Notes under the pieces: generated by a model | Databases searched by the model: none | The model's input: only the letters and a program-made list of their open reading frames with translations | Told to the model about the DNA's origin: nothing | From: Oscillospiraceae bacterium | Lineage (GTDB): Bacteria > Bacillota > Clostridia > Oscillospirales > Oscillospiraceae | DNA: 39,309 bases | Assembly: GCA_902785905.1 (NCBI GenBank) | Contig: CADAAM010000025.1 | Span: forward strand, 1-39,309 | Reading direction: 5' to 3' | In this document: one piece after another, positions 294-16,286 of the stretch | Layout: every line of letters starts with the position of its first letter | How positions within the stretch are numbered: the stretch's first letter is position 1 | Program-made: the position numbers and the translations under genes

Positions 294-1431
294 CGAGCAG
301 ACTCCTTGCTTTTACCTCAAGCCCCTGTTCGATCCGGTCAATGGGTATATCCCAGTATTCAACAGAAGCCGGAAGGCAGCTTTGCAGAAAGCTGATCTGC
401 TCGGGATACGCGATGACTTTGCAATGCAGCTTCGTATTCCGTATGGCATCATGAAAGCGAATCAGTCTGGCAATGTCTCCGTCAAGAAATGAGAATAGAT
501 AGGTGTTATCCTCAATGGCGTCATATTCAAACGCACCCTTGTTATCTGATCGTGTATCCTCATCAAAGAGCAAATCCAGGATCTGTTCTTTCCAGTCCGG
601 GAGCCGCATGATTGCAAGCTGTCTTACGCCGAAATCCTGCAACGGAACAAAGCAGACATGAGGATAAATGCTGTCGAACCTCTGCGGTTTCCCTTTCCAG
701 GTGTCTTTACAGCGTATCGTGTCAAGCGCAACCGAGTAATCCTGCCCGAGAAGAACGGCGGTGTCTAACTGAGAGCATCCGGAATTGTTTCGGGCAATCT
801 GAATCAGATCCTGCCTTGCCTTGAATTCGCCCTCACCATTCCAGCGCATGACGGCATTTCGGGTATTATAGACGGCCATGCAGCTTGCGGGTGTAAACAG
901 AGCGCCTGTATAGCGGGCATATTTTGTTTTGTTCACTGATTCAGGCTCGATTTGCTTGACATCACTTGCCAGAAGCGCCATCGGGCGATCTATGATCAGC
1001 GCCCGACGCTGCATCTGAAGAGCCGGAAGCATCCAGGGCCTGCACTCAATGCCTGCCCGGAGGAGCATTACAGCCGTCTCGGCCACCCGATAAGAGCGCT
1101 CATGATGCGTTTTGCTGCTTGACATGCCTGAGCGGGTGAATCTGGATTCGTAGTATTCCCGTGTCCCGATCCAGTCGAGCAGGGGAAGGGCGAATCTTGA
1201 CAGGCGAATGGTCGTACAGGGTGACTTGCCTGAGAGGTTGATCACCTTCACGCACATCTTTTCACCGGTCGCAGAGTTCCGGATCACCTGAGGCTGTGTC
1301 AGCTTCTGAACCAGCCTGCCGAGCTCCTGCCTGTCTCCGAGAAGTTGCAGCGAAGTCGTCGGATACTCGCCCACAAGAGAGAGGACGGTCACGAGACGGA
1401 AGAGATGACTGCCGGGAGAAAAGTACATCAT
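286..1431 (-). CDS. Conserved ICE protein of unknown function (381 aa)
   Basis: I do not recognise a named family, but the protein type recurs next to coupling-protein genes in clostridial ICEs (recollection, not a search). The first 90 residues look like a small DNA-binding helical domain (LFRLVTVLSLVGEYPTTSLQLLG). The rest is soluble alpha/beta sequence with no transmembrane segment or nucleotide-binding motif. The start at 1431 is chosen because AGAGG lies about 8 nt upstream of a double ATG. It is cotranscribed with the coupling protein remnant downstream, overlapping it by 8 bp. A role in DNA processing or in regulation of transfer is possible but unproven. Confidence 0.7.
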   Translation of the reverse strand: MMYFSPGSHLFRLVTVLSLVGEYPTTSLQLLGDRQELGRLVQKLTQPQVIRNSATGEKMCVKVINLSGKSPCTTIRLSRFALPLLDWIGTREYYESRFTRSGMSSSKTHHERSYRVAETAVMLLRAGIECRPWMLPALQMQRRALIIDRPMALLASDVKQIEPESVNKTKYARYTGALFTPASCMAVYNTRNAVMRWNGEGEFKARQDLIQIARNNSGCSQLDTAVLLGQDYSVALDTIRCKDTWKGKPQRFDSIYPHVCFVPLQDFGVRQLAIMRLPDWKEQILDLLFDEDTRSDNKGAFEYDAIEDNTYLFSFLDGDIARLIRFHDAIRNTKLHCKVIAYPEQISFLQSCLPASVEYWDIPIDRIEQGLEVKARSLLDG

Positions 1432-1576
1432 TGCGTATCCTCTTGTATAAAGAAAAATCGGTCAATGGTTTCTCCTCTTGACCGAAAAAGTGAAGTGCCA
1501 GAGCGGCCCAATAGCCTGATTTACAGACAAAAACCACCGCTAAAAACAGGTACAGAAAATGAAGAAAATTCGGCAT
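1432..1576 (-). CDS. Possible small membrane protein upstream of the 381-aa gene (uncertain)
   Basis: Between two clear genes an open frame starts with ATG at 1576, nine nt after AGGTG, and encodes a hydrophobic segment (LHFLYLFLAVVFVCKSGYW). The frame does not stop at 1432 but continues into the next gene in another frame until 1262, which is unusual for a real gene. It may be a short membrane protein, a fused N-terminus lost by frameshift, or chance. Only the non-overlapping part is given. Confidence 0.2.
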
Positions 1577-1594
1577 GGTTTTTTGCACCTGTTT

Positions 1595-2266
1595 TCAGAT
1601 GGTCTGCCACGTGTTTTTCATAACTTTTTGCTCCTGTTCGAGCCAGAGAGGAAAGTCCCGCCGGGGCACGACGAAGACCTCTGTGAAGTCCTCATCGTCG
1701 GCTGCGCTGCAGTAGTAGTGAGAGCATACTGCCGGGCCGTCATCGGTCAGAACAAAGAGGGCAATGGCATCGGCCACTGAGTTGACCTCAATGTTATCAT
1801 GATCACGCTTCCGGCGCTCCGGCCGCTTTCGGTCATATACATGGCGGAAGATGAGGACGGCGTCCACGTAATGAAGCGGTTCATGGTCGGCAAAATATCT
1901 CTGAAGCGCCGGGTAAAGGTATGCGCAGATATAGCTGCGCGACTCCATCTCCTTCTTCGGGAGTAGAGTAGGGAGATTTACATAAAACCAATTTTCTTTT
2001 GTTATGGAAATCTTAACGGGAACTGTGCTGCATACTACATCCTCAACATCCTGATAAGCGCTGGGCTTGCCGGTGTAGACAGGAAGCTTGCGGGTCAAAA
2101 GTGTGGTCTGTTCCGCATACCTGGCCAGACGCAGCGATACGGAATAGGCTTCCTCCAGATAGTTTTGATCGAGGAGCTGCCGGATCAGGCGCGTTTCGGC
2201 ATTGAGACGATTAATTTTCTGCTCAATCGAGGACAGCACATCAATAAAGGAGTTGGTTGGCAGCAT
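1595..2266 (-). CDS. DUF6100-like ICE protein with a RusA-like motif (223 aa)
   Basis: The first 65 residues form a helical, coiled-coil-like region (IDVLSSIEQKINRLNAETRL). The C-terminal half contains RDHDNIEVNSVADA ending in LTDD: D155, D157, N158 and D176. In RusA-family Holliday-junction resolvases the catalytic aspartates have the arrangement D-x-D-N with a third D 19 residues after the second; here the spacing D157-D176 is exactly 19. The lysine found in E. coli RusA four residues after the second D is missing (V161). I recall this protein type as DUF6100, number unverified. Start: ATG at 2266 has AGAGGAG 10 nt upstream. It overlaps the preceding gene by 26 bp, so translation is probably coupled. 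Confidence 0.65.
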   Translation of the reverse strand: MLPTNSFIDVLSSIEQKINRLNAETRLIRQLLDQNYLEEAYSVSLRLARYAEQTTLLTRKLPVYTGKPSAYQDVEDVVCSTVPVKISITKENWFYVNLPTLLPKKEMESRSYICAYLYPALQRYFADHEPLHYVDAVLIFRHVYDRKRPERRKRDHDNIEVNSVADAIALFVLTDDGPAVCSHYYCSAADDEDFTEVFVVPRRDFPLWLEQEQKVMKNTWQTI

Positions 2267-2855
2267 CTTGAAGTATCTCCTCTGAATAAAAAAGTACATT
2301 TGGCTCATCGGCCCCCCGAAATTCGACTGTTGCGAAGAGACAGGGGGCCTTCGGAAGCCGCAATTCAGCAGCCATGGATATGCGGGGAAGGACAATGACG
2401 TATTTCAGATCCTCCTGCGGCTGAAGCAGTCGAAGAAGATTCTTCTCACCCTCGTACAGTACGACGATCTCATATCCCATGTTTTCTTTCAAAAAGAAGA
2501 GCTGAGACGGGTAAACCGCCGGATAATGGGCCATAGGCTCCACATAGTCTATGAATTGCAGCAGCACCCAGACCGCCAGGACAATGCGCTGGTCAGGCTT
2601 TGCCAGCGGGTCAAGAGCGCAGTAATAACCGTCGCCAATGTCCGCAATCCGCATGTCTCGCTTGAGGTTATCCAGAATCTTTTCCGCAGTCCTTGGCGGC
2701 TTGCGCAGCATCCTGAGAAGCTGTGTCTTAGGCAGGGCACCATATTGAGAGAGCCATTTGATAACATGGGATTCATCTTCAAGCAGCAGATGATCACCCC
2801 CTTTGAAAGGCTTATGTACATACAACATTACATTAATGTACATAGAACAATACAT
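2241..2855 (-). CDS. DUF5697-like ICE protein (about 180-204 aa)
   Basis: The protein begins with a probable winged-helix region (SHVIKWLSQYGALPKTQLLRML ... TAEKILDNL) followed by an alpha/beta domain. I recall this type as DUF5697, found with conjugation genes of Firmicutes; the function is not known. The start is unclear. ATG codons at 2855 and 2828 lack a good ribosome binding site, and the 2855 start would read through two palindromes that look like operators. A strong AAAGGGGGTGATC lies at about 2793-2805, just before in-frame CTG codons at 2789 and 2786, so a non-ATG start there is possible. The gene follows virB4 by only 29 bp but has its own candidate regulatory region. Confidence 0.6.
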   Translation of the reverse strand: MYCSMYINVMLYVHKPFKGGDHLLLEDESHVIKWLSQYGALPKTQLLRMLRKPPRTAEKILDNLKRDMRIADIGDGYYCALDPLAKPDQRIVLAVWVLLQFIDYVEPMAHYPAVYPSQLFFLKENMGYEIVVLYEGEKNLLRLLQPQEDLKYVIVLPRISMAAELRLPKAPCLFATVEFRGADEPNVLFYSEEILQDAANQLLY

Positions 2856-2872
2856 AAAGTTTACATAATGTA
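2829..2872. promoter_or_regulatory. Two TACAT-ATGTA palindromes, candidate operator pair
   Basis: TACATTAATGTA (2829-2840) is a perfect 12-bp palindrome and TACATAATGTA (2862-2872) is an 11-bp version of the same motif. Their centres are 32.5 bp apart, about three helical turns. The block is AT-rich compared with its surroundings and lies between the end of virB4 and the probable start of the DUF5697-like gene. It could bind a dimeric repressor controlling the distal part of the operon. No convincing promoter hexamers were found. Confidence 0.35.
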
Positions 2873-2884
2873 GATTGAGGCTGA

Positions 2885-5413
2885 TTACACAGATTTAGCA
2901 TCTTGTCGGTCACGGAGTATCGCTTCCAGCTCAGCCCGGTCTGTCGTGATCATCTCCTGCTCCTCCTTGGAGGCCTTGATGACCACAGGGACCTTGTTAT
3001 TGTTGGAGCAGATCAGTGCCTCGCCTCGTTCAAACTGGGTGATTGATCGAAGCTCGGTTTTTGTGAGCTTCAAAACCTCCTGCACCGTCTTGGCTTCATC
3101 CGGTTCCAGATTCAGAATGATCTTGTTCTTGGAGTTGTTGATGATTGCCCTGCCGTACTTGCCGTCCTCCAGACCGAAAAAGTCCGAAAGGTCCTGTGTT
3201 GCGGAGATGGCAGCGCCGCCGAAGCCGCGGATCGTTTTGAAGATCGTCAGGCAGAACTCCGCCGCCATGCGGTTGGAGTTTGCGCCGATAAGCTGCCAGA
3301 TCTCGTCGATCATGATTGCTTTCTTCTTGGTGCGGTCCGCTTTTACCGTGTCCCAAACATAGTCGAGCGCGATGAACATGCCGACCGGCAGAAGCTTGCC
3401 CTTCAATTCTGAGAGATCCAGCACTATGTACTTGTTCGTCAAGTCTACGTTGGTCTGCTGATTGAAGCTCTGGGCGGAGCCGGTCACAAAGCGGCTGATG
3501 ATCACCGCAAGCCGCTGGGTCATGGGATTTGTCAGCAGCTCCTCATGCAGGTCGCCGATCGTCGGCATGGTCTTGAGCCGGGGAGGGAAGCTGCCCTTGC
3601 TGAGATAGAGAGAGTCGTTTTCGTGGGTGATGCCGAACTTGGCATAGGTGCGGATCAGCGCTTCATCGAGCAACTGCTCCTCTTCATTGTTCATGTCTGG
3701 GATCAGCAGGGAGAAGAAGATCATCAGCTGCTGGATCTTGCGGGCCAGCATCGAGTCCAGCTCACTGTAATCCAGCTCGTCGATGAGCTCCATCTCCGGG
3801 GAGATGGTCTGCCGGATCTCCATGATGTTGATGCAGTGCGGGGAGCCGGGCGCGATTCGGATAAACTCGCCGCCTACCTGACGGCAGGCACGGCGAAACT
3901 CATGGCCCTTGATCGGCGCCACAATAAAGCACTGTATCCCACGCATCCTCATTCGTAATGCCAGAAGCTGCATGGTAAAGGTCTTTCCGGCACCGGAGGT
4001 CCCGAGAATGTTGAGATTCGCGTTCTTGTTCTTCTTCGTATTGAAAAGATCCACGATGCAGAGAGAATTGTTGTGCCGGTTGATGCCCAGAAGGACACCC
4101 GCATCGTCAGACATCTCAAAGCTCGTGAACATGTAGGAGGAAGCCGCGCCGCTGGTCAGGACGTTGCGGCGGGACTTGCGGTCAAGCTTCGGGTCGAGCT
4201 TCAGAAAGGGCATGACCGAGGAAAAAGCCGCCTCCTGCTGGAAGCGGCAGTCACTCACATACATATCCATAGACTTGAGCATATCCACCATCTGCTGCTT
4301 TCTCCACATGAGCTCGTCGAGACTTTTGGCGGACACAGTCACGAAAACGGAGAGGTAAAACAGATCCTCGTTGTAGTTTGCGATGCCCTGCTTGATGTAG
4401 TAGCCCGCCTGGATAGAGTTCGTCAGCTCCTCGTAGTCTGTGCTGGTATCCTGCATACTCTTGAGCTTGGTGCGGTTGAGACGGATTCGTTGGGCAACCT
4501 TGTCGATGGTCTTGCTGCGGTTTTCCCGGTGCAGGTGTACGTCAATGTCGATCCCGTCCCCGGCGTTGATGAGTGTGGACATCCATCCGGCCCTCACACG
4601 GGAGGGGTAGCCGTTGCCGCGTATGTAAAGAAAGCAGTAATAGAGCCCGTCCATAATGATGTAGTTGTTATGGGTGAAGTCCACGCCGCGTGGGGAGATG
4701 AAGTGGTTTATCCGGATCTTGGGGACGGCATCGACCCCAATGACCAGGTTTCTCGCCGCCATGCTGTCCACGACAACGCGGTTGACTCTGGATTCAAAGG
4801 GCTCTTCCACACAGGAACGGCGGTTGAAGAACATGTACAGGATCTCCGCTGTAGCCTGGTCAGGGTCTTTGTGCTGTACGATGGTGTTGCCGCACTGCAT
4901 GAAATAGGCGCGGGCATTTTGCTCCACCGTCTGAATCGTGCTGTAGACCAGCCCAAAGTCCTCACTGTCGCCCCGCCGCTGCTCCTCATACTGATAAATA
5001 AGGAAAAAACGCCGGGTCAGGGCTTCACGGTTGCCCACATCTCTTACAAAGCGGATATAGCCTTCGGCCTGACGGCGGCATTCCTCGTTGGTTTCGCCCT
5101 CCAGATCCTGACGCAGCAGCCGGACATGCCGATCGGAGTCGGCTTTCCGTGTGATGCTCTTGAACTGCAGGTGCTGGGGAGAAATCTTCAGCCAGGAGGC
5201 AAAGGAGGAGATGATATTGAACTGCTCCTCCTCCGAGCGCAGCATGAAGTTGATGGGCTCGATCTCCAGGATCTTGATATAGCGATTGTCCGTTGTCTCA
5301 ATGATCCCGTGATGGATGCTTCTGACCGGGATGAAATCCTGGACGAATTCAAGCAGCTCTGTGCTGCTTTTTTGCTTTTTTCTTTTTGTGTTTCTTGAGG
5401 CGTTTCGGGTCAT
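2885..5413 (-). CDS. virB4: VirB4-like conjugation ATPase
   Basis: VirB4/TraE ATPases energise assembly of the type IV secretion channel at the inner face of the membrane. The 842-aa protein has the expected layout: an N-terminal domain (residues 1-440) and a C-terminal RecA-like ATPase with Walker A GTSGAGKT (471-478, lysine 477) and Walker B IMIDEIW (D703, E704). The motif SATQDLSDFF follows at about 740, matching the conserved glutamine region of the family. Length is normal for clostridial ICE versions. The start at 5413 has AGGAGG about 12 nt upstream and lies inside the end of the PrgI-like gene (65-bp overlap), a sign of translational coupling. The first 16 residues are rich in K and R. 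Confidence 0.93.
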   Translation of the reverse strand: MTRNASRNTKRKKQKSSTELLEFVQDFIPVRSIHHGIIETTDNRYIKILEIEPINFMLRSEEEQFNIISSFASWLKISPQHLQFKSITRKADSDRHVRLLRQDLEGETNEECRRQAEGYIRFVRDVGNREALTRRFFLIYQYEEQRRGDSEDFGLVYSTIQTVEQNARAYFMQCGNTIVQHKDPDQATAEILYMFFNRRSCVEEPFESRVNRVVVDSMAARNLVIGVDAVPKIRINHFISPRGVDFTHNNYIIMDGLYYCFLYIRGNGYPSRVRAGWMSTLINAGDGIDIDVHLHRENRSKTIDKVAQRIRLNRTKLKSMQDTSTDYEELTNSIQAGYYIKQGIANYNEDLFYLSVFVTVSAKSLDELMWRKQQMVDMLKSMDMYVSDCRFQQEAAFSSVMPFLKLDPKLDRKSRRNVLTSGAASSYMFTSFEMSDDAGVLLGINRHNNSLCIVDLFNTKKNKNANLNILGTSGAGKTFTMQLLALRMRMRGIQCFIVAPIKGHEFRRACRQVGGEFIRIAPGSPHCINIMEIRQTISPEMELIDELDYSELDSMLARKIQQLMIFFSLLIPDMNNEEEQLLDEALIRTYAKFGITHENDSLYLSKGSFPPRLKTMPTIGDLHEELLTNPMTQRLAVIISRFVTGSAQSFNQQTNVDLTNKYIVLDLSELKGKLLPVGMFIALDYVWDTVKADRTKKKAIMIDEIWQLIGANSNRMAAEFCLTIFKTIRGFGGAAISATQDLSDFFGLEDGKYGRAIINNSKNKIILNLEPDEAKTVQEVLKLTKTELRSITQFERGEALICSNNNKVPVVIKASKEEQEMITTDRAELEAILRDRQDAKSV

Positions 5414-7779: not shown

Positions 7780-10483
7780 TCATGTTTTCTTCTTTGGTGT
7801 CCTGCTGTCACGCTGGCGGCGCGGCGCGGGAGAACTGCGCTTTGCAGGGAGATTGCGGTAGCGCACGGTTTCCACAGAGATCGTTTTGACGTTTTCGCCG
7901 TCATAGACCGGCTTGCCGTTCTCATAAACAGGCCGCCGCTCAACAGCAGGCTGCCCGGATACGGCGTACCACTTGCCGCCGCGGCTGTCCTCCAGCGTCT
8001 GGAAGTCTCCGCGGGGTTCAGAATAACGTGTGCTGTCGAAGAACATGGTACCGGAGCCGTCCGCATGACGTACCTCAAAGTGGCCATCACTGCGTCCAGA
8101 GTCATCGACGGATGTGATCGGCTGCTCATAGCCGGGTATGAAGTTTTTGAACAGCGCCTGGTTGTAAGCTGCCGAAAAGTCCGAAAAGACCTCGGAATCC
8201 GTAAAGAAAGACGCAGTGTCGGTGTTGGGTGTGCTTTCAGCAGGGGTAAAGGCAGCGTCAGATTGAGAAACAGGGCTCGAATAATCTGACGTGGGTGTTG
8301 CCGCAGGAGCCTCGGGCGTTTCAGCATGATAGCTGGAATCCGGCACAGGGACAAAGTCTGCCGCAGGTGTTTCTTCCACATGAGATACGGAGTCGTTTGA
8401 GCCGGACATGGGATTCACGTAGAAGGATTGGGCCTCAGCCTCGGTGATAGGCATACCGAAGGGGATTTCAACATCCGATGCAGACGAGTTTTGAACAGAA
8501 ATGGGAGTACCCGCATCAAAAACCGGCTCATCTGCGGAAAGGCTTACCGATCCGGAAGCACTGCCGAGAGCTGTGTCAGATACCTCAGAAGGAGAATCCG
8601 ACGGCGGCATCGGCGCAAAGTCTGACGTATTCGGCATGTAAGAATAAGAATCGGACGGTGCAGACAGGGGAGAGCCGGTATCCATGCCCGGGTTGTCCAC
8701 AGGAGCGGATGGGATAACAGAAGCCTCGCCAAAACCGGATTCTGAAGTCCCCCGTAAATGTTGCTCCAGACTGAGATGTGTCCACAGACCCGGATTCAAA
8801 ACCGGGCGCTTCACTATGGGGATGCATGGTGTACCAATCCACGCCGTTGGCAGAACCCATAATGGAATGGGGAGCGTCTGGCTCTTCAAACATGGCGCTG
8901 TTATACCACATGGAGCTTGTCCCGTCCGGGGACGTAGCCTGAATCTCGCCTTCTCCGACACTGCGAAGAACGGTTCCGTCGGGGGCATCCGGGAAGAAGG
9001 AGGCCACCTGCGCACTTTCATCGGCGCTGCCGCTGAAATGCGGCGCGTCATAGAACGAAGCGGCATCCGGTCCGCTTGCCACCTGATACCACTGACTGCC
9101 GTCTGAGGCTGTCAGCGTCGCATGAGGCCCGGCAGGCTTTTCAAACTGAGAGGCATTGAACATCTCCACAGAAGTCTGTTTGCCATCCGCACCGACCGAT
9201 GTGGTACTGATCCGGCCGCCGCTGATCTGCGTGTTCTTGAGCTGGCGGTTTCCAAGCTGGGGCATGTAGTTCTTGAGGCTCCGGTCCGCGATCTCTCCGC
9301 CAATACTGCCGGAGACGGCAGATGGACGGGAGGCAACAGAGGAAATGGACTCGCCGGAGAGCGTAGCGCCGTTTCTGGCGGCGATCCCGCCGAAGGCGCG
9401 GCCCACAAACCCGATCGAGCCGCCGGCACCCATGCGGGTACCGCCGTTTACCACAGCGTCGCGTACATAGGAATTGCCCTTGAAGCGATTGGCAAATCCG
9501 GAGGCAACCCCGGCAGCCGTGCTTGTCGCGGAGCTGCCCGCGGCTCCGGAGCCACGGAAGACACTGCCTGCCGATCTCGGCCCGCCGCCGACACCACTGA
9601 GCACTCTCGCCGCCATCATCATCTCCATTGCCATACTGGACCCGGTCTGGGCGACGTTTAAGCCGATGGAGGACAGATAGCTCTCAAAGCGCTGGGCGCA
9701 CTTGAGAAAAGCCAGCGCGCAGAACAGCCAGAGAAAGATGCTGCCCTGACCGTTTGTGAGCGCGCCGCCGTTTCCTATAAACTGGCCGACGGATGATCCA
9801 AAGGCCCGAAGGAACCAGACGTTCATTATGAGCAGGATCAGTTGGGAGCCGACCATGCGGCACCAGGAGCGAAATACGGAGTTCGTCTCTTTTGAGCCGC
9901 CCATGGCGAAGGCCAGGGGAGAGGTATAGCAGAGGACGCCGACCACCACATAACGTTCGACTGTCTCAAGCAGGAGCTTGAAATAGTTCCAGCCAAGTGC
10001 GATCTCCAGGATCACAAGCAGCAGCGTCCCAACGATGGACGTGGTTGCCACAATGGTCACAAGGCCGTTTTTCAGTGCTTCTTCGATCCCGGCAAAGGTG
10101 AAGTCCTCCGCCGTCATGGTGACCTCCATCAGAGCCGTATAGGGTGCCCGGGCTATATCCAGCGTCATCTGGAAGATGGACTGGGAATAACCGATCATCA
10201 CGGCAAATAGAATACTTCTCGCAACAAGTGTCAGCGGGTTCTCTGCGTCTGTGATCGGACCGCCGAAAGCGCGGAAGAGCTGCCAGGCGGTTATGAGAAA
10301 AAGGAGCGCCCATGCGGTATACTGTAGAATACCGAAAGCCTTTGTCACAAAGGGGAAATACTCCTCCATGACCACCATATCTGTGCCGAGCGCATCGAGG
10401 AACAGTCCGGATACAGCATCCATGAGCGAGGTCATGACACTGCTGATCCAGGTCACGATGCCTTCAAAGATCCAGTCAAGCAA
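7780..10483 (-). CDS. TrbL/VirB6-like conjugation channel protein, frameshifted
   Basis: TrbL/VirB6 proteins form the polytopic membrane part of the transfer channel. Residues 1-300 hold about six to eight hydrophobic segments, for example FGILQYTAWALLFLITAW and IVGTLLLVILEIALGW. A Gly/Ala/Ser-rich part follows, then a soluble C-terminal region made of three degenerate repeats of about 55 residues (consensus DG..S.M[FW][YF][ND]S...EP......S.G..WY). The start is TTG at 10483, five nt after GGAGGTGAT. Upstream of about 8753 the protein is read in one frame and downstream to 7780 in another; deleting one base from the five-base G run (8749-8753) joins both into about 900 residues. Without correction the protein adds about 50 unrelated residues and ends at 8585, losing the acidic Ser/Pro-rich linker and the third repeat. 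Confidence 0.8.
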
Positions 10484-10519: not shown

Positions 10520-10876
10520 TTAGCCCGTGTACTGGCCGCCGGCGACAAGGGGCTGCAGATAGGCAACGACAAAGCCCAGAGAGTTCAGAATGATCCACGC
10601 CACGACAATGCGTTTGAGCCAGCTCGTCGCTTCATCCACGGCCCGCTGGTTGCGGGAGATCATGCGAACGATCAGGGCAATGCTTGCCACCGTGACCGCG
10701 ACGATCGTGGAGATTGCCACGATCTGACCGTAGATGTCCGTCACAATGGACCGGATGCGGTCAAAGATCGAGTCTGCCATGACCGGCTGCATCGTTATCA
10801 ACCCCGCGGACAGCACAGAGATTACCGACCAGTAAGCCGTGACCATATGCTCCTTCAGCAGATGTTTCCTCGTCAA
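10520..10876 (-). CDS. VirB2/TrbC-like conjugation pilin-type protein
   Basis: This small membrane protein (118 aa) stands first in the conjugation operon, directly before the TrbL-like gene, the usual place of the VirB2/TrbC (Maff2-like) subunit. It has a signal-like helix (AYWSVISVLSAGLITMQPVMA, likely cut after PVMA) and two membrane segments (IVAISTIVAVTVASIALIV and IVVAWIILNSLGFVVAYL) separated by a basic loop. That is the VirB2 topology. I choose TTG at 10876 because a near-perfect AAGGAGGTGA lies five nt upstream. An ATG further in (10846) lacks such a site, and frames extended upstream would run through the terminator hairpin. The family call rests on size, topology and position. Confidence 0.75.
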   Translation of the reverse strand: MTRKHLLKEHMVTAYWSVISVLSAGLITMQPVMADSIFDRIRSIVTDIYGQIVAISTIVAVTVASIALIVRMISRNQRAVDEATSWLKRIVVAWIILNSLGFVVAYLQPLVAGGQYTG

Positions 10877-10881
10877 AAGCC

Positions 10882-10947
10882 TCACCTCCTTCCTGATAAG
10901 CGGGCATGAAAAAAACCGCTCCCGGAAAGCCCGGAAGCGGCGTTCAT
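10882..10947 (-). CDS. Possible 21-aa leader peptide of the conjugation operon
   Basis: An ATG at 10947 opens a 21-codon frame that runs through both arms of the leader terminator and ends with TGA inside the pilin ribosome binding site (GGAGGTGA). It begins MNAASGLSGSGFF. Ribosome movement through it would disturb the terminator hairpin, as in leader-peptide attenuation. No good ribosome binding site precedes the ATG, which weakens the case. Confidence 0.3.
   Translation of the reverse strand: MNAASGLSGSGFFHARLSGRR
10909..10940 (-). terminator. Strong intrinsic terminator in the conjugation operon leader
   Basis: On the minus strand a 10-bp stem (CCGCTTCCGG/CCGGGAGCGG, one G-U pair, 5-nt loop) is followed by seven U residues. 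It stands between the operon promoter and the first gene, so it is a leader terminator rather than the end of a gene. A further small hairpin (GTCCCA/TGGGAC, 10954-10968) would form the very 5' end of the transcript. Confidence 0.75.
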
Positions 10948-10974
10948 CGCCCAGTCCCAATTTGGGACGATACC

Positions 10975-11003
10975 AATATACCACGGATTGATTCCCGTGT
11001 CAG
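10975..11003 (-). promoter_or_regulatory. Promoter of the conjugation operon
   Basis: On the minus strand CTGACA (11003-10998, five of six consensus bases) is followed after 17 bp by TATATT (10980-10975). Transcription would begin near 10968, 20 bp before the 21-codon leader frame. The -35 box touches the first GTGCC repeat. Confidence 0.6.
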
Positions 11004-11057
11004 TGCCTTGGAGGTGCCATTTTAGTGCCAACTTTGTGCCATCATAGTGCCTTGCAA
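11003..11057 (+). repeat. Five GTGCC direct repeats at exact 11-bp period
   Basis: GTGCC begins at 11003, 11014, 11025, 11036 and 11047, each 11 bp after the last, with variable bases between (often A or T directly after GTGCC). The array fills the space between the -35 boxes of the two divergent promoters. Such phasing places every repeat on nearly the same face of the helix. It fits direct-repeat binding regulators (OmpR/PhoB- or SARP-like winged helices) or integrase arm-type sites. Confidence 0.8.
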
Positions 11058-11080
11058 GAAAAGTGAAAAGAGAATATACT
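11052..11080 (+). promoter_or_regulatory. Promoter of the Y-family polymerase gene
   Basis: TTGCAA (11052-11057) and TATACT (11075-11080) are separated by 17 bp. The -35 box overlaps the tail of the last GTGCC repeat. The polymerase ATG follows 36 bp after the -10 box. Confidence 0.65.
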
Positions 11081-11116: not shown

Positions 11117-12376
11117 ATGAATGAACAGCTTATCTTTCATGTGGATGTCAACAGTGCCTTTCTGTCCTGGGAGGCAGCGCGGCGCGTCAGAAACGGCGAG
11201 CCCGATCTGCGCTTGATCCCGTCCTGCATCGGAGGTGATCCGGAATCCAGAAGGGGAGTCGTACTTGCGAAGTCCATCCCGGCGAAAGCGTTCAAAATCA
11301 GGACGGGTGAGCCGATCGCCATGGCGTTGAGAAAATGCCCACAGCTCGTGATCGCAAAGCCGGACTTCAAGCTTTATTCGGCTTGCTCCAAGGCGTTTAA
11401 GGATATCTGCCGCAGTTATGCGCCGGTCGTGGAGGAATTCTCCATCGACGAATGCTTCATGGACATGACCGGTACCGGACACATGTACCCTGATCCCGTC
11501 GCGCTGGCGCACACGATCAAGGACAGAATCCGGGACGAGCTCGGATTTACGGTGAATATCGGCATCGGGCGCAACAAACTCTGTGCGAAGATGGCGAGCG
11601 ACTTTGAGAAGCCGGATAAGGTACACACGCTTTATCCGGAGGAAATCCCGGACAAGCTCTGGCCGCTGCCGGTGGGGGATCTGTTGTTCGTGGGCGGCGC
11701 CTCCGCAAATCGGCTGCGAGAAGAACATATCTACACAATCGGAGAGCTTGCGCATACAGACCCGGAGCTTCTGCGGAGAATCCTCGGGGACAAAATGAGT
11801 CTACAGGCCTGCAATTACGCAAACGGTATCGACAATTCACCTGTCCGTGCAGAGCCGGAAGAGGCCAAGGGCTACAGCAATTCCGTAACGCTTGAGGAAA
11901 ACGTGACCACGCTGGAGGCGGCGGACGCAATCCTACTGGCTCTTTCGGACAGCGTCTCGGCCCACATGCGCAGCGACGGAGCAAAGGCATATTGTGTGGC
12001 GGTGTCCATCCGCTATCTGGATTTCAAAAACCGCTCCCATCAGTGTAAGACAGATCATCCGGTGGAATCCACGCGGGAGATCTATGAGCTGTCGAAACGG
12101 CTTCTGCGGGAGCTGTGGAAAGATCACAGGCCTCTGCGGCTTATGAGCATTGCCCTTTCCAACCTGACAAGAGAAAATGAGGGCGGGCAGATGTCACTGT
12201 TCGGAGAGGAGGACAGCAATAGACGCCAACGAGATGTAAAGCTGGACAAGGCGGTGGACGCTTTGCGAAGCAAGTTCGGTGCCGACATCATCCAGCGCGG
12301 CACGGTTATGAAGGACGGGCTCCAGGTTGCCCGCAAGTTCAAGGGCAAGCAAGCATCCGAGCAGGAAAAAACGTGA
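11117..12376 (+). CDS. Y-family (DinB/UmuC-like) translesion DNA polymerase
   Basis: Y-family polymerases copy damaged templates with low fidelity; copies on ICEs and plasmids are common. The 419-aa protein has the family's metal-binding motifs HVDVNSAF (D10) and EEFSIDECF (D111, E112), a fingers region with GVVLAKS and a helix-hairpin-helix-like part (IYTIGELAHTDPELLRRILG). The C-terminus carries QMSLF, which resembles the beta-clamp binding motif QxxLF. Start: ATG 11117 with AGGAGGG eight nt upstream. It is transcribed away from the conjugation operon from a good sigma-A-type promoter. No standard Firmicutes LexA box was found, so SOS control is not evident. It ends before a shared terminator. 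Confidence 0.93.
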   Translation: MNEQLIFHVDVNSAFLSWEAARRVRNGEPDLRLIPSCIGGDPESRRGVVLAKSIPAKAFKIRTGEPIAMALRKCPQLVIAKPDFKLYSACSKAFKDICRSYAPVVEEFSIDECFMDMTGTGHMYPDPVALAHTIKDRIRDELGFTVNIGIGRNKLCAKMASDFEKPDKVHTLYPEEIPDKLWPLPVGDLLFVGGASANRLREEHIYTIGELAHTDPELLRRILGDKMSLQACNYANGIDNSPVRAEPEEAKGYSNSVTLEENVTTLEAADAILLALSDSVSAHMRSDGAKAYCVAVSIRYLDFKNRSHQCKTDHPVESTREIYELSKRLLRELWKDHRPLRLMSIALSNLTRENEGGQMSLFGEEDSNRRQRDVKLDKAVDALRSKFGADIIQRGTVMKDGLQVARKFKGKQASEQEKT

Positions 12377-12407
12377 GCAGGCATCCTGTCCTGAAGGAAA
12401 ACGAAGT

Positions 12408-12453
12408 ACGGCGCCCGAAAGACCTTTGAGGCTGATCGGGCGCCGTGTTCTTT
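12408..12453. terminator. Terminator between convergent genes
   Basis: An 11-bp perfect stem (ACGGCGCCCGA at 12408-12418, TCGGGCGCCGT at 12436-12446) with a 17-nt loop is followed by GTTCTTT on the plus strand. It lies between the polymerase gene (plus) and the 204-aa gene (minus), and can serve the polymerase gene best. Confidence 0.6.
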
Positions 12454-13066
12454 ACTTGCTGTTGGGCTTAGCCTTGCCGCTAAGCATAGACACAAGATCA
12501 AGCCAGAGGTCAATATTTGTGCTTGGAACCGACCAGAGCCGAAGAGAGATGATGTTGATTGCCTGCTCTTTCAGCCGATAATAATGCCGTCTCGAGATGT
12601 TCAGCCGATAGAGGACATCTGTCTGATGAAGCTTTTCCTCAGAAATGTAGGTCAGATAGATCAGGTCGTAAAGCAGAGGACCGTTATCCGGCTTGTATTT
12701 GAGCGTGGTCAGGGCATCGTTGATGCGATCCAAAAGCTGGCGGGTCTTGGCCAGCCTTTCCAGGCGAAGCTCAAGACGACGATTCTCCATACCAATCTCT
12801 GCGTCGATCCGACTAAGAACGGCGTCGAGCTTCTGCAAAGTGAGATTGAGCTCGGCGGCGATGGTGTCCAGCTCACTGTCGGTCTGCCAGAGAATGTTTC
12901 TGTAGTTTGAGAGCAGGAGAAGTGTATTGTGATATGCCTCCTTGCGCTTTTTCTCTTCAACCTGCTGTGGCGTTATGCTTTCGTCTGCAAGAATACCACG
13001 TTCACGGAGAAAAGAAAGAACCGCCTCATCATTCGAGGCGGTGGAGGGAAAAGCATTTTTAGTCAT
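12452..13066 (-). CDS. Helical protein with a sigma-region-4-like C-terminus, unknown function
   Basis: I do not recognise a named family. The 204 residues are nearly all helical. The centre (50-115) reads like a coiled coil (AAELNLTLQKLDAVLSRIDA ... LELRLERLAKTRQLL). The C-terminal part (ISEEKLHQTDVLYRLNISRRHYYRLKEQAI) looks like a helix-turn-helix of the ArpU/RinA or sigma-region-4 type, so a DNA-binding regulator is possible. Start: ATG 13066, ten nt after AAAGGAG; a TTG two codons upstream is the alternative. It lies downstream of the 301-aa gene on the same strand, separated by 84 bp. Confidence 0.55.
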   Translation of the reverse strand: MTKNAFPSTASNDEAVLSFLRERGILADESITPQQVEEKKRKEAYHNTLLLLSNYRNILWQTDSELDTIAAELNLTLQKLDAVLSRIDAEIGMENRRLELRLERLAKTRQLLDRINDALTTLKYKPDNGPLLYDLIYLTYISEEKLHQTDVLYRLNISRRHYYRLKEQAINIISLRLWSVPSTNIDLWLDLVSMLSGKAKPNSK

Positions 13067-13150
13067 AGGCAAAAAGCTCCTTTGAGATAATGTTCAGGTC
13101 TACGGTGCAGGGACCCCTGATGGGATCAATGTCATTTGACCGTGGCGGTC

Positions 13151-14056
13151 CTATATCTGTACCCTGGCAGTCATAATTACAATTCTTCCAAATCCAACAA
13201 TGAGAAAGATACGCGCGTTTAAAAGAAGAGAAAAGTGCAACGCGATTATTGTGTCGAATTTGCTGCGGCGGCTATACCAAACGACCATACGACTCAGATG
13301 CTCGCGCTGACCTTCATGCTTGACAACATCGGTGGAGTATTCTCTGATCTTGCCAAGCACATCGGCGATCTGTTCATCGCTGGGCAGGGAGACGCCTGTA
13401 TCGCAGGGATAGAGCGTATTGAAAATGAGACAGCCATAAGAGCCGGGGAGCCGGCATAGAGCGAAGACGTCCGCGTGCTTTTGCAGGAACCTCCGATTCT
13501 CCAAAGTCAGAAAAACTCCGTATTTGCCGTACTGGCAAACCGGAGCAAAAAAAGAAAACGCATTGTGCGGATCCATCGATACGGTGTGGCACCAAAGATC
13601 CAGCCATGCATCAGCTTCATTAAATATGTAGTTTTGAGATACAAGTCTTTCTGTAATAGACCGGGGGATACATAGAAAGCCATAGCCGGGGGTAGCATAT
13701 ACAGCACCGGGATCACAGGGAGCGCCGCAGTAATCCAGCTCATAATCCGTGATGCGGTACGTCAGCAGCTTCGTTTTAGCGTCCAGCTCAAAGCTGAGAT
13801 ACCCGAGATCTGAGAGCTGTCGGAGAATATTGAGTGCCTGTTCACGCTTTTTCACACCGAGAATGCTCTTCAGACCGACAATGCCGCCGGCCCAGGTTCC
13901 CGGTTCAACAGGATTCCGGTGCCCGCAATAAGAGACAATGCCTTTCCGGAAGGCAGCACGGGCAGCAAGATGAGCCCAATGGCTGAGTATACCCTTACAA
14001 GAAGGAACCACTGAGCGTGGTAGCTTGGTCCACAGAAACCTTTCGAGACAAGACAT
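13151..14056 (-). CDS. Conserved ICE protein with winged-helix-like region, unknown function
   Basis: No named family recognised. Residues 38-110 (IVSYCGHRNPVEPGTWAGG, then SILGVKKREQALNILRQLSD and a beta-hairpin-like part) resemble a winged-helix fold, as seen in replication or transfer regulators of mobile elements. The rest is soluble with several Cys, Trp and Tyr residues. The last 40 residues, after WYSRRSKFDTI, turn hydrophobic and look less protein-like, so a frameshift near the 3' end is possible. Start: ATG 14056 follows GGAGGTTAAC. Rightmost gene of the ICE block. Confidence 0.5.
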   Translation of the reverse strand: MSCLERFLWTKLPRSVVPSCKGILSHWAHLAARAAFRKGIVSYCGHRNPVEPGTWAGGIVGLKSILGVKKREQALNILRQLSDLGYLSFELDAKTKLLTYRITDYELDYCGAPCDPGAVYATPGYGFLCIPRSITERLVSQNYIFNEADAWLDLWCHTVSMDPHNAFSFFAPVCQYGKYGVFLTLENRRFLQKHADVFALCRLPGSYGCLIFNTLYPCDTGVSLPSDEQIADVLGKIREYSTDVVKHEGQREHLSRMVVWYSRRSKFDTIIALHFSLLLNARIFLIVGFGRIVIMTARVQI

Positions 14057-14111
14057 GTTAACCTCCTTTTTTACGGATTAATATAGCTGTATACTCATGA
14101 ATAAACAAAAA

Positions 14112-14149
14112 AGAAAGCAGACAATTGTTAGGCAAATTGTCTGCTTTCT
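14112..14149 (-). terminator. 15-bp hairpin terminator in the ICE/groEL gap
   Basis: Arms 14112-14126 and 14135-14149 pair perfectly over 15 bp with an 8-nt loop; on the minus strand the stem runs into TTTTTT. It can end groEL transcription before the ICE genes. The rest of the gap 14057-14285 is AT-rich and holds no gene; it contains a doubled TGCGTAAG (about 14183-14200) and an inverted pair GCGCTTTTC (14165) / GAAAAGCGC (14250). The ICE boundary must lie in or near here, but no attachment core is recognisable. Confidence 0.6.
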
Positions 14150-14285
14150 CTGTCATGCAAAAAGGCGCTTTTCTGTTAATAATGCGTAAGTTCTGCGTAA
14201 GCTATTCCCAAATTGTTCTAAAAGATACAGATTAATTTTAGTATTTGGCGAAAAGCGCGGTTTATATGGGGCTAAAAGTTAGTGC

Positions 14286-16216
<1,931 letters not shown>

Positions 16217-16259
16217 GCTTCTATACCTCCAAATAATTATATTACAAAAATCAACATCG

Positions 16260-16286
16260 TTAGCACTCAAACATCCTGAGTGCTAA
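16260..16286 (-). promoter_or_regulatory. CIRCE operator for HrcA
   Basis: TTAGCACTC (16260-16268), nine-base spacer, GAGTGCTAA (16278-16286): a perfect match to the CIRCE consensus. It lies between the promoter and groES, the usual place for HrcA repression that is released at heat shock. Confidence 0.98.

Follow-up and report, generated by a model that had tools for sequence, protein, structure and literature searches.

An 11-bp-phased repeat array at the transfer promoter of an Oscillospiraceae conjugative element, a probable site for a regulator resembling phage late-gene activators

Introduction

In Gram-positive phages, activators of the Ltr kind (ArpU, RinA, and Alt) control the late genes for packaging, structure, and lysis. 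According to the available excerpts of PMC13123087, these proteins are around 130 aa in size, are activators, and generally bind four imperfect repeats; Alt of phage TP901-1 binds four imperfect direct repeats lying at -76 to -32 from the start. The subject here is a 39,309-bp stretch of DNA from an Oscillospiraceae bacterium (GenBank assembly GCA_902785905.1, contig CADAAM010000025.1, positions 1 to 39,309; 'the window'), in which five 11-bp-phased repeats precede not a phage late operon but the transfer genes of an integrative and conjugative element (ICE). Judged from sequence comparison, this array very probably serves the conjugation operon as its upstream activating sequence, bound by an element-encoded regulator that resembles phage late activators and would switch on transfer.

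A further parallel is Ltr of Staphylococcus phage phi13, the repeats of which lie upstream of a TATA box, are needed there for activation, and follow the regulator gene; unlike those of the window, they are 18 bp long, number three plus a partial one, and go with another Ltr family (excerpts of PMC13123087). The conjugation operons of Tn916 and pLS20 are described as subject to transcription termination and antitermination, with similar mechanisms suspected in other ICEs (PMC11658703 for the last point; PMC11658703 and PMC8955417). Unlike the window, these two systems come with no mention of a phage-type activator array in the excerpted accounts.

Among the top-ranked titles and abstract beginnings from the open-licence literature, none describes a regulator of this kind, or such an array, for the transfer promoter of an ICE. 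The first-pass annotation of the window, which was made from the letters alone, knew of no description of the arrangement: for conjugative elements this stands within the literature searched, but a phage counterpart has been published (excerpts of PMC13123087).

The repeat array and its flanking promoters

GTGCC starts on the plus strand at 11003, 11014, 11025, 11036, and 11047, giving five copies in exact 11-bp steps, just as had been read at first pass. With 40 occurrences of GTGCC on that strand in 39,309 bases, a five-unit ladder of exact 11-bp spacing is expected by chance about 4e-11 times (arithmetic from the window count). Read towards the conjugation operon, the repeat unit is TGGCAC. 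The array fills the gap between two divergent sigma-A-like promoters (Table 1); both had been proposed earlier and both are recovered by a mechanical consensus scan, which reports three promoter-like sites for this kilobase, whereas shuffled sequence has 0.5 on average.

Within the window's genome (assembly 85% complete), this is the only place where three copies of TGGCA stand 11 bp apart when at most one mismatch is allowed. Four GTGCC at 11 bp as an exact pattern were found in one of 150 family genomes, which is the window's own, and relatives carry variants of the motif. The 11-bp period itself is kept in related elements.

Gene order in related elements

A search of 200 family genomes with the first protein of the minus-strand operon gave 24 loci in 21 genomes. 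In 16 of the 24, a regulator gene with a product of 173-245 aa (206 aa in the window, so larger than the phage regulators) ends directly upstream on the same strand, as the gene for an Ltr/ArpU/RinA protein lies directly upstream of its promoter and as alt directly precedes 11-bp repeats with GGCAC-like units in TP901-1. The order in these 16 loci is regulator gene, 11-bp repeats, extended -10 element, leader with terminator, and pilin-like gene, and none has room for a polymerase gene between regulator and array.

Cargo intervenes in the window and in a second genome of the same genus (G174), whose first operon protein is 85% identical to that of the window. The G174 array has four repeats, one of them GGCAG, and is separated from the regulator by nitroreductase-like and other genes. 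On plasmid pMM35_02 of Vescimonas fastidiosa (NZ_AP023417.1), a 1.5-kb gene lies between the operon and the gene for the regulator, WP_212822110.1, and the GGCAC repeats precede the pilin gene (annotated as a fimbrial protein) rather than following the regulator. The array therefore stays with the operon promoter in all three cargo-interrupted loci in which both are seen (window, G174, and pMM35_02), which argues that it belongs to the minus-strand conjugation promoter.

The slot between regulator and pilin gene holds various cargo: a polymerase in the window, nitroreductase-like and other genes in G174 (L262), the 1.5-kb gene in pMM35_02 (L372), and also a DNA ligase gene in L243/L266.

Period and register of the repeats

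Nineteen promoters were aligned on their -10 elements; five distant matches in which no promoter was set (L256, L257, L258, L260, and L261) were left out. Self-match at a lag of 11 is 0.412 over all 19 and 0.382 over the 15 that remain without the window, G174, and near-duplicates, compared with 0.257 after shuffling (z 8.8; 0/1000). Single promoters vary: for 9 of the 19, lag 11 is the best of the 21 lags, and for L259 it comes eleventh.

A profile of nine relatives of the regulator, run against 295 genomes of the same taxonomic order (29 with a match), gave 30 loci, nine of which were used in the period test; the others were from earlier genomes, near-duplicates, truncated, of a distant class, or without a recognisable promoter (L292, L294, L295, and L296). 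These nine further promoters give a lag-11 self-match of 0.397 (z 6.9), and six promoters behind distant regulators, with the motif CCGAC, give 0.451 (z 8.7). The array of protein sites on one helix face beside the transfer promoter that had been predicted for the window is thus borne out to the extent that related elements keep the 11-bp period.

The repeats also keep their register. With the window and G174 left out, 18 of 24 promoters show GG[CG][AG] at -44 (+-1), counted from where the -10 element ends; of 47 copies of GGCA, 24 are exactly in phase and 39 within 1 nt. Two to five repeats are recognisable upstream of the -10 in ICE promoters (five in the window), in keeping with the roughly four imperfect direct repeats of the phage systems, and in most relatives they stop near -44, before the -35 region is reached.

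Motif and recognition-helix residue

The repeat motif varies together with one residue of the regulator. In a first set of loci, Arg is aligned with R162 of the window's regulator (P0001) in 26 of 27 loci with GGCA repeats and in none of 12 others; the exception, L069, is likely an alignment shift and was counted against the rule as aligned. With the prediction fixed, 400 family and 391 class genomes were searched and the fetched loci scored. Among these 36 held-out loci, several of which are close kin of earlier loci or of each other, GGCA/GGCG pairs in phase (11, 22, or 33 bp apart) occur in 14 of 15 with Arg, as read by eye, and in 0 of 21 without it. Regulators with S-R-T-T (L247, L336, and L342) have GGGAC repeats in all three cases.

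Both sets were then combined under one automatic criterion, without 18 duplicate rows, four short or unfinished rows, and one with a truncated regulator, and also without the window and G174, as cargo separates regulator and array in both. Of the resulting 68 rows, 32 have Arg and a pair, 31 have neither, three have Arg without a pair (L275, L296, and L339), and two have a pair without Arg (L285 and L287, both with a second, downstream array).

In L285 and L287, one array of CCGAC repeats has its promoter and is followed by another of GGCA repeats, which has a second promoter-like stretch ahead of a sigma-like gene.

The regulator and its phage counterparts

The best of the three phage-family matches of P0001 is to phrog_1558, of unknown function (3.9e-12); the others are to phrog_36, named 'transcriptional regulator' (6.6e-8), and to phrog_248, named 'transcriptional activator' (0.0026). 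In addition to ICE copies, the nine-relative profile weakly matches regulators at L295 (9.7e-7) and L296 (5.4e-6), which themselves match phrog_1558 at 1.1e-35 and 2.2e-49. In L295 the gene downstream is an HNH gene and in L296 it encodes a terminase small subunit, both named from sequence alone; the two regulators thus occupy the place of phage late regulators. These matches suggest that P0001 is phage late-activator-like, and membership of a curated family is not claimed for it. The OmpR/PhoB-type or SARP regulators first considered for the array find no counterpart: the linked, element-encoded regulator resembles phage late regulators, and no OmpR or SARP model is among the matches of the P0001 family. 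Searches with P0001 gave no match in plasmids and one weak, irrelevant match (0.089) in solved structures, and viral contigs gave none with P0001 or with one relative. The single-sequence fold is all helical (mean pLDDT 67.5, pTM 0.37) and too weak for a fold search.

Viral contigs yielded 115 stretches in which four GTGCC are spaced by 11 bp, and a scan of genome contigs gave at least 118 stretches, most of them not from Bacillota. GTGCC arrays as one single class were rejected: the viral stretches form unlike groups. Near the viral arrays of L019, L069, and L114, an open reading frame (ORF) matches phrog_36 or phrog_248. In L019, the regulator is ArpU by TIGR01637 (8.5e-41), and four GGCAC stand at -32, -43, -54, and -65 from the -10, nearly the register of the window; this regulator and a similar one from Anoxybacillus voinovskiensis (L234, from the genome scan) share with the ICE regulators an S-x-R-x-Y-Y-R helix. 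In L114, the regulator adjoins the array, with repeats at -33, -44, -55, and -66. In TP901-1, the 11-bp repeats begin at the alt stop codon and GG stands at -65, -43, and -32, against -66, -44, and -33 in the window. Unlike P0001, Alt falls in phrog_2198 (3e-61) and only weakly in phrog_36 (0.005), and its target is a phage late operon. Of eight phage loci, lag 11 is best in four (Kawika, Mimir87, phiARI0285-1, and TP901-1).

GTGCCC arrays at 11 bp lie inside phage replication-protein genes (L005, L023, L089, and others), where they code for GTxRAQQGHxKGT-like stretches and are possibly origin iterons. An actinobacterial element (L147, L150, L172, L179, L196, L208, L217, L226, L231, L236, and kin) is much alike across genera and has a GTGCCATAGTGGTGCCATGGACTTGAC-like sequence leading into what is probably a start codon. 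In phage phiARI0285-1 (L304, 2696-3089), the annotation places a GOLLD RNA between the terminase and an ArpU-like gene that has 11-bp repeats.

Proposed mechanism and points against it

The regulator P0001 is taken to be of the same broad kind as the Gram-positive phage late-gene activators. Several copies would sit side by side on one face of the helix, one per 11-bp repeat and ending at the -35 region, and the bound copies would bring RNA polymerase to the pilin/VirB4 operon at its extended -10 promoter. Comparison of the array, its register, the change of motif with the regulator, gene order, and distant homology to phage regulators points to such an arrangement.

The leader may add a further step. 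An intrinsic terminator is predicted in all 19 leaders examined, the window's included (hairpin of -12 to -36 kcal/mol, then a T run). For 18 of them, 0-2 of 20 shuffled sequences reach -9 kcal/mol; the remaining leader has 7 of 20. Since promoter and terminator follow one another in 19 of 19 leaders, the bound regulator may, besides recruiting polymerase, pass it over the terminator in the manner of lambda Q, which the excerpts of PMC11658703 recall as binding DNA near a promoter.

Several observations weigh against this account. The window's own regulator and array are separated by a Y-family polymerase gene, ArpU and array have two other genes between them in L019, and L243/L266, with its DNA ligase gene upstream, has no regulator on its 5.9-kb contig. 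P0001 falls below the cut-off for the ArpU model (TIGR01637, 0.029) and for DUF1492 (20.3 of 21.5 bits). Comparison by hhalign with four phage regulators gave one match, of only 26 columns and 70% probability, which falls on the S-x-R-x-Y-Y-R helix. The ICE-regulator profile alone, at E 0.01, found no match among the 11,352 ORFs of loci L005-L237, phage regulators included, so the phage link is not obtainable by that profile. The best lag is 12 in phi105 and other lags lead in NIIg3.2, Likha, and O1205; lag 11 wins only narrowly in Kawika, and the DNA of Mimir87 is AT-rich. The -10 elements were placed by pattern in 19 promoters and by eye in the others (9 + 6 + 4), and the register therefore depends partly on the analyst's choice. 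In a quick tree built without the helix columns, the residue-motif link has three independent pairs on supported branches, with 2.4 of 3 in the same direction on average (sign test, p 0.25); with so few, shared ancestry may explain the link.

Alternative explanations

If the array were instead an operator at which the bound regulator keeps the transfer genes off, the overlap of the fifth repeat with the -35 box would be accounted for, but the repeats of most relatives end upstream of the -35 region (~-44), which is an activator position, and the phage counterparts are activators in the excerpts of PMC13123087. Repression is accordingly held to be improbable. Direct repeats are usual at iterons, origins of transfer (oriT), and recombinase arm sites, and sites of this sort might lie in the intergenic region by chance; some viral GTGCC arrays do lie inside replication-protein genes, and L016 and L019 have a recombinase-like ORF around 450 bp from the array. 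We consider this very unlikely for the window, given the fixed register to the -10, the change of motif with the regulator, and the uniqueness of the array in its 85%-complete genome assembly. Integrase arm sites, which the first-pass annotation had raised, also find no partner nearby: nine PF00589 matches occur in the window's genome (191 contigs, 85% complete) and none on its contig. A narrow motif search for integrases over 116 array loci turned up one ORF in a single locus, at 2.2 kb from the array; as that search misses the recombinase-like ORF of L016 and L019, it is no proof of absence, and the argument for the window relies on PF00589. Sigma-54 promoters have a -24/-12 consensus that TGGCAC-N5-TGGCA resembles, and one repeat pair fits with one mismatch (read by eye). 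A sigma-54 promoter is scarcely credible, however, given that there are five copies at 11 bp and that the motif is GGGAC, TTAGAC, or CCGAC in some relatives.

Joint control, in which the one array switches both the transfer operon and the Y-family polymerase, had been put forward at first pass and now appears doubtful, if less so than repression. Both promoters have their -35 box in contact with the array; the plus-strand promoter is kept in G174; and on another G174 contig (C7) a polymerase 98% identical to that of the window is likewise tail-to-tail with a remnant of the regulator gene. This G174 polymerase has other upstream sequence, however, with no array, and at least three GTGCC within 200 bases upstream were found for none of the 14 polymerase homologs besides the window's (14 of the 22 other genomes with a match). 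Moreover, the plus promoter (TTGCAA-17-TATACT) faces a nitroreductase-like gene in G174, the regulator gene itself sits at the polymerase's place in 16 of 24 loci, the phase of the array is locked to the transfer-operon -10 in relatives, and it is with the operon that the array stays when cargo intervenes. Because the polymerase homologs lack the array, joint control would be at most a recent accident of this element. The array may still affect the plus promoter itself, as that promoter is kept in G174. A simple pattern found no SOS box near the window's polymerase. Activation of the conjugation operon by a phage late-activator-like regulator thus remains the preferred explanation.

Features of the locus

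The coordinates are collected in Table 1. The first operon protein (10520-10882) has no Pfam match, and the Vescimonas gene at the same place is the one annotated as a fimbrial protein; the minus-strand operon also encodes a protein matching the NlpC/P60 model. The palindrome GTCCCAATTTGGGAC and the leader terminator were absent from the first-pass annotation; a sequence similar to the palindrome stands at the same place in several relatives. Between the convergent polymerase and regulator genes (12400-12450) lies a terminator-like inverted repeat (GGCGCCCG..CGGGCGCC). A groEL-like gene stands beside the element in both the window (region 13151-16270) and G174 (L262, region 825-3744).

Table 1. 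Features of the window around the repeat array
Feature	Position	Strand	Basis or comment
VirB4/TraG-type ATPase of the transfer system	2885..5413	-	TraG/VirB4 model match
TrbL-like transfer protein, next operon gene	8585..10483	-	PF19597, E 0.0042, below gathering score
First operon gene, small VirB2/pilin-like membrane protein, 120 aa, TTG start	10520..10882	-	Weak NCBIfam pilin-like match (0.073)
Strong intrinsic terminator in 5' leader, ahead of first gene	10909..10941	-	Terminator prediction
Palindrome GTCCCAATTTGGGAC at about +1 of the transcript	10954..10968	-	Read from sequence
Conjugation-operon promoter, CTGACA-17-TATATT, extended TG before -10	10975..11003	-	Mechanical consensus scan
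Array of five 11-bp-phased repeats	11003..11051	-	Proposed regulator sites, counted from the 3' end of the -10: -33, -44, -55, -66, and -77
Divergent promoter, TTGCAA-17-TATACT	11052..11080	+	Mechanical consensus scan; kept in G174 before another gene
Y-family DNA polymerase (IMS domains), cargo between regulator and array, tail-to-tail with regulator gene	11117..12376	+	Domain match
Element-encoded regulator P0001, 206 aa, Arg162 at the position going with GGCA motifs	12452..13072	-	Candidate array-binding protein; in relatives the homologous gene immediately precedes the array
Gene upstream of regulator, 301 aa	13151..14056	-	Vescimonas gene at the same place annotated helix-turn-helix protein; G174 homolog longer (354 aa)

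Implications

The analysis offers a candidate regulator gene by name, its putative DNA sites and their register, and a proposed one-residue rule of specificity, and it joins the control of ICEs with that of phage late genes. It also provides an approach to locating transfer promoters and their regulators in unannotated genomes. A wider view, put forward only speculatively, is that a whole branch of clostridial conjugative elements might run transfer with captured phage late switches, with one helix residue setting specificity (Arg for GGC; Thr in S-R-T-T for GGG) and the regulator perhaps acting like lambda Q. For the family of mobile elements to which the window belongs, the array suggests that conjugation is run by a phage-type switch.
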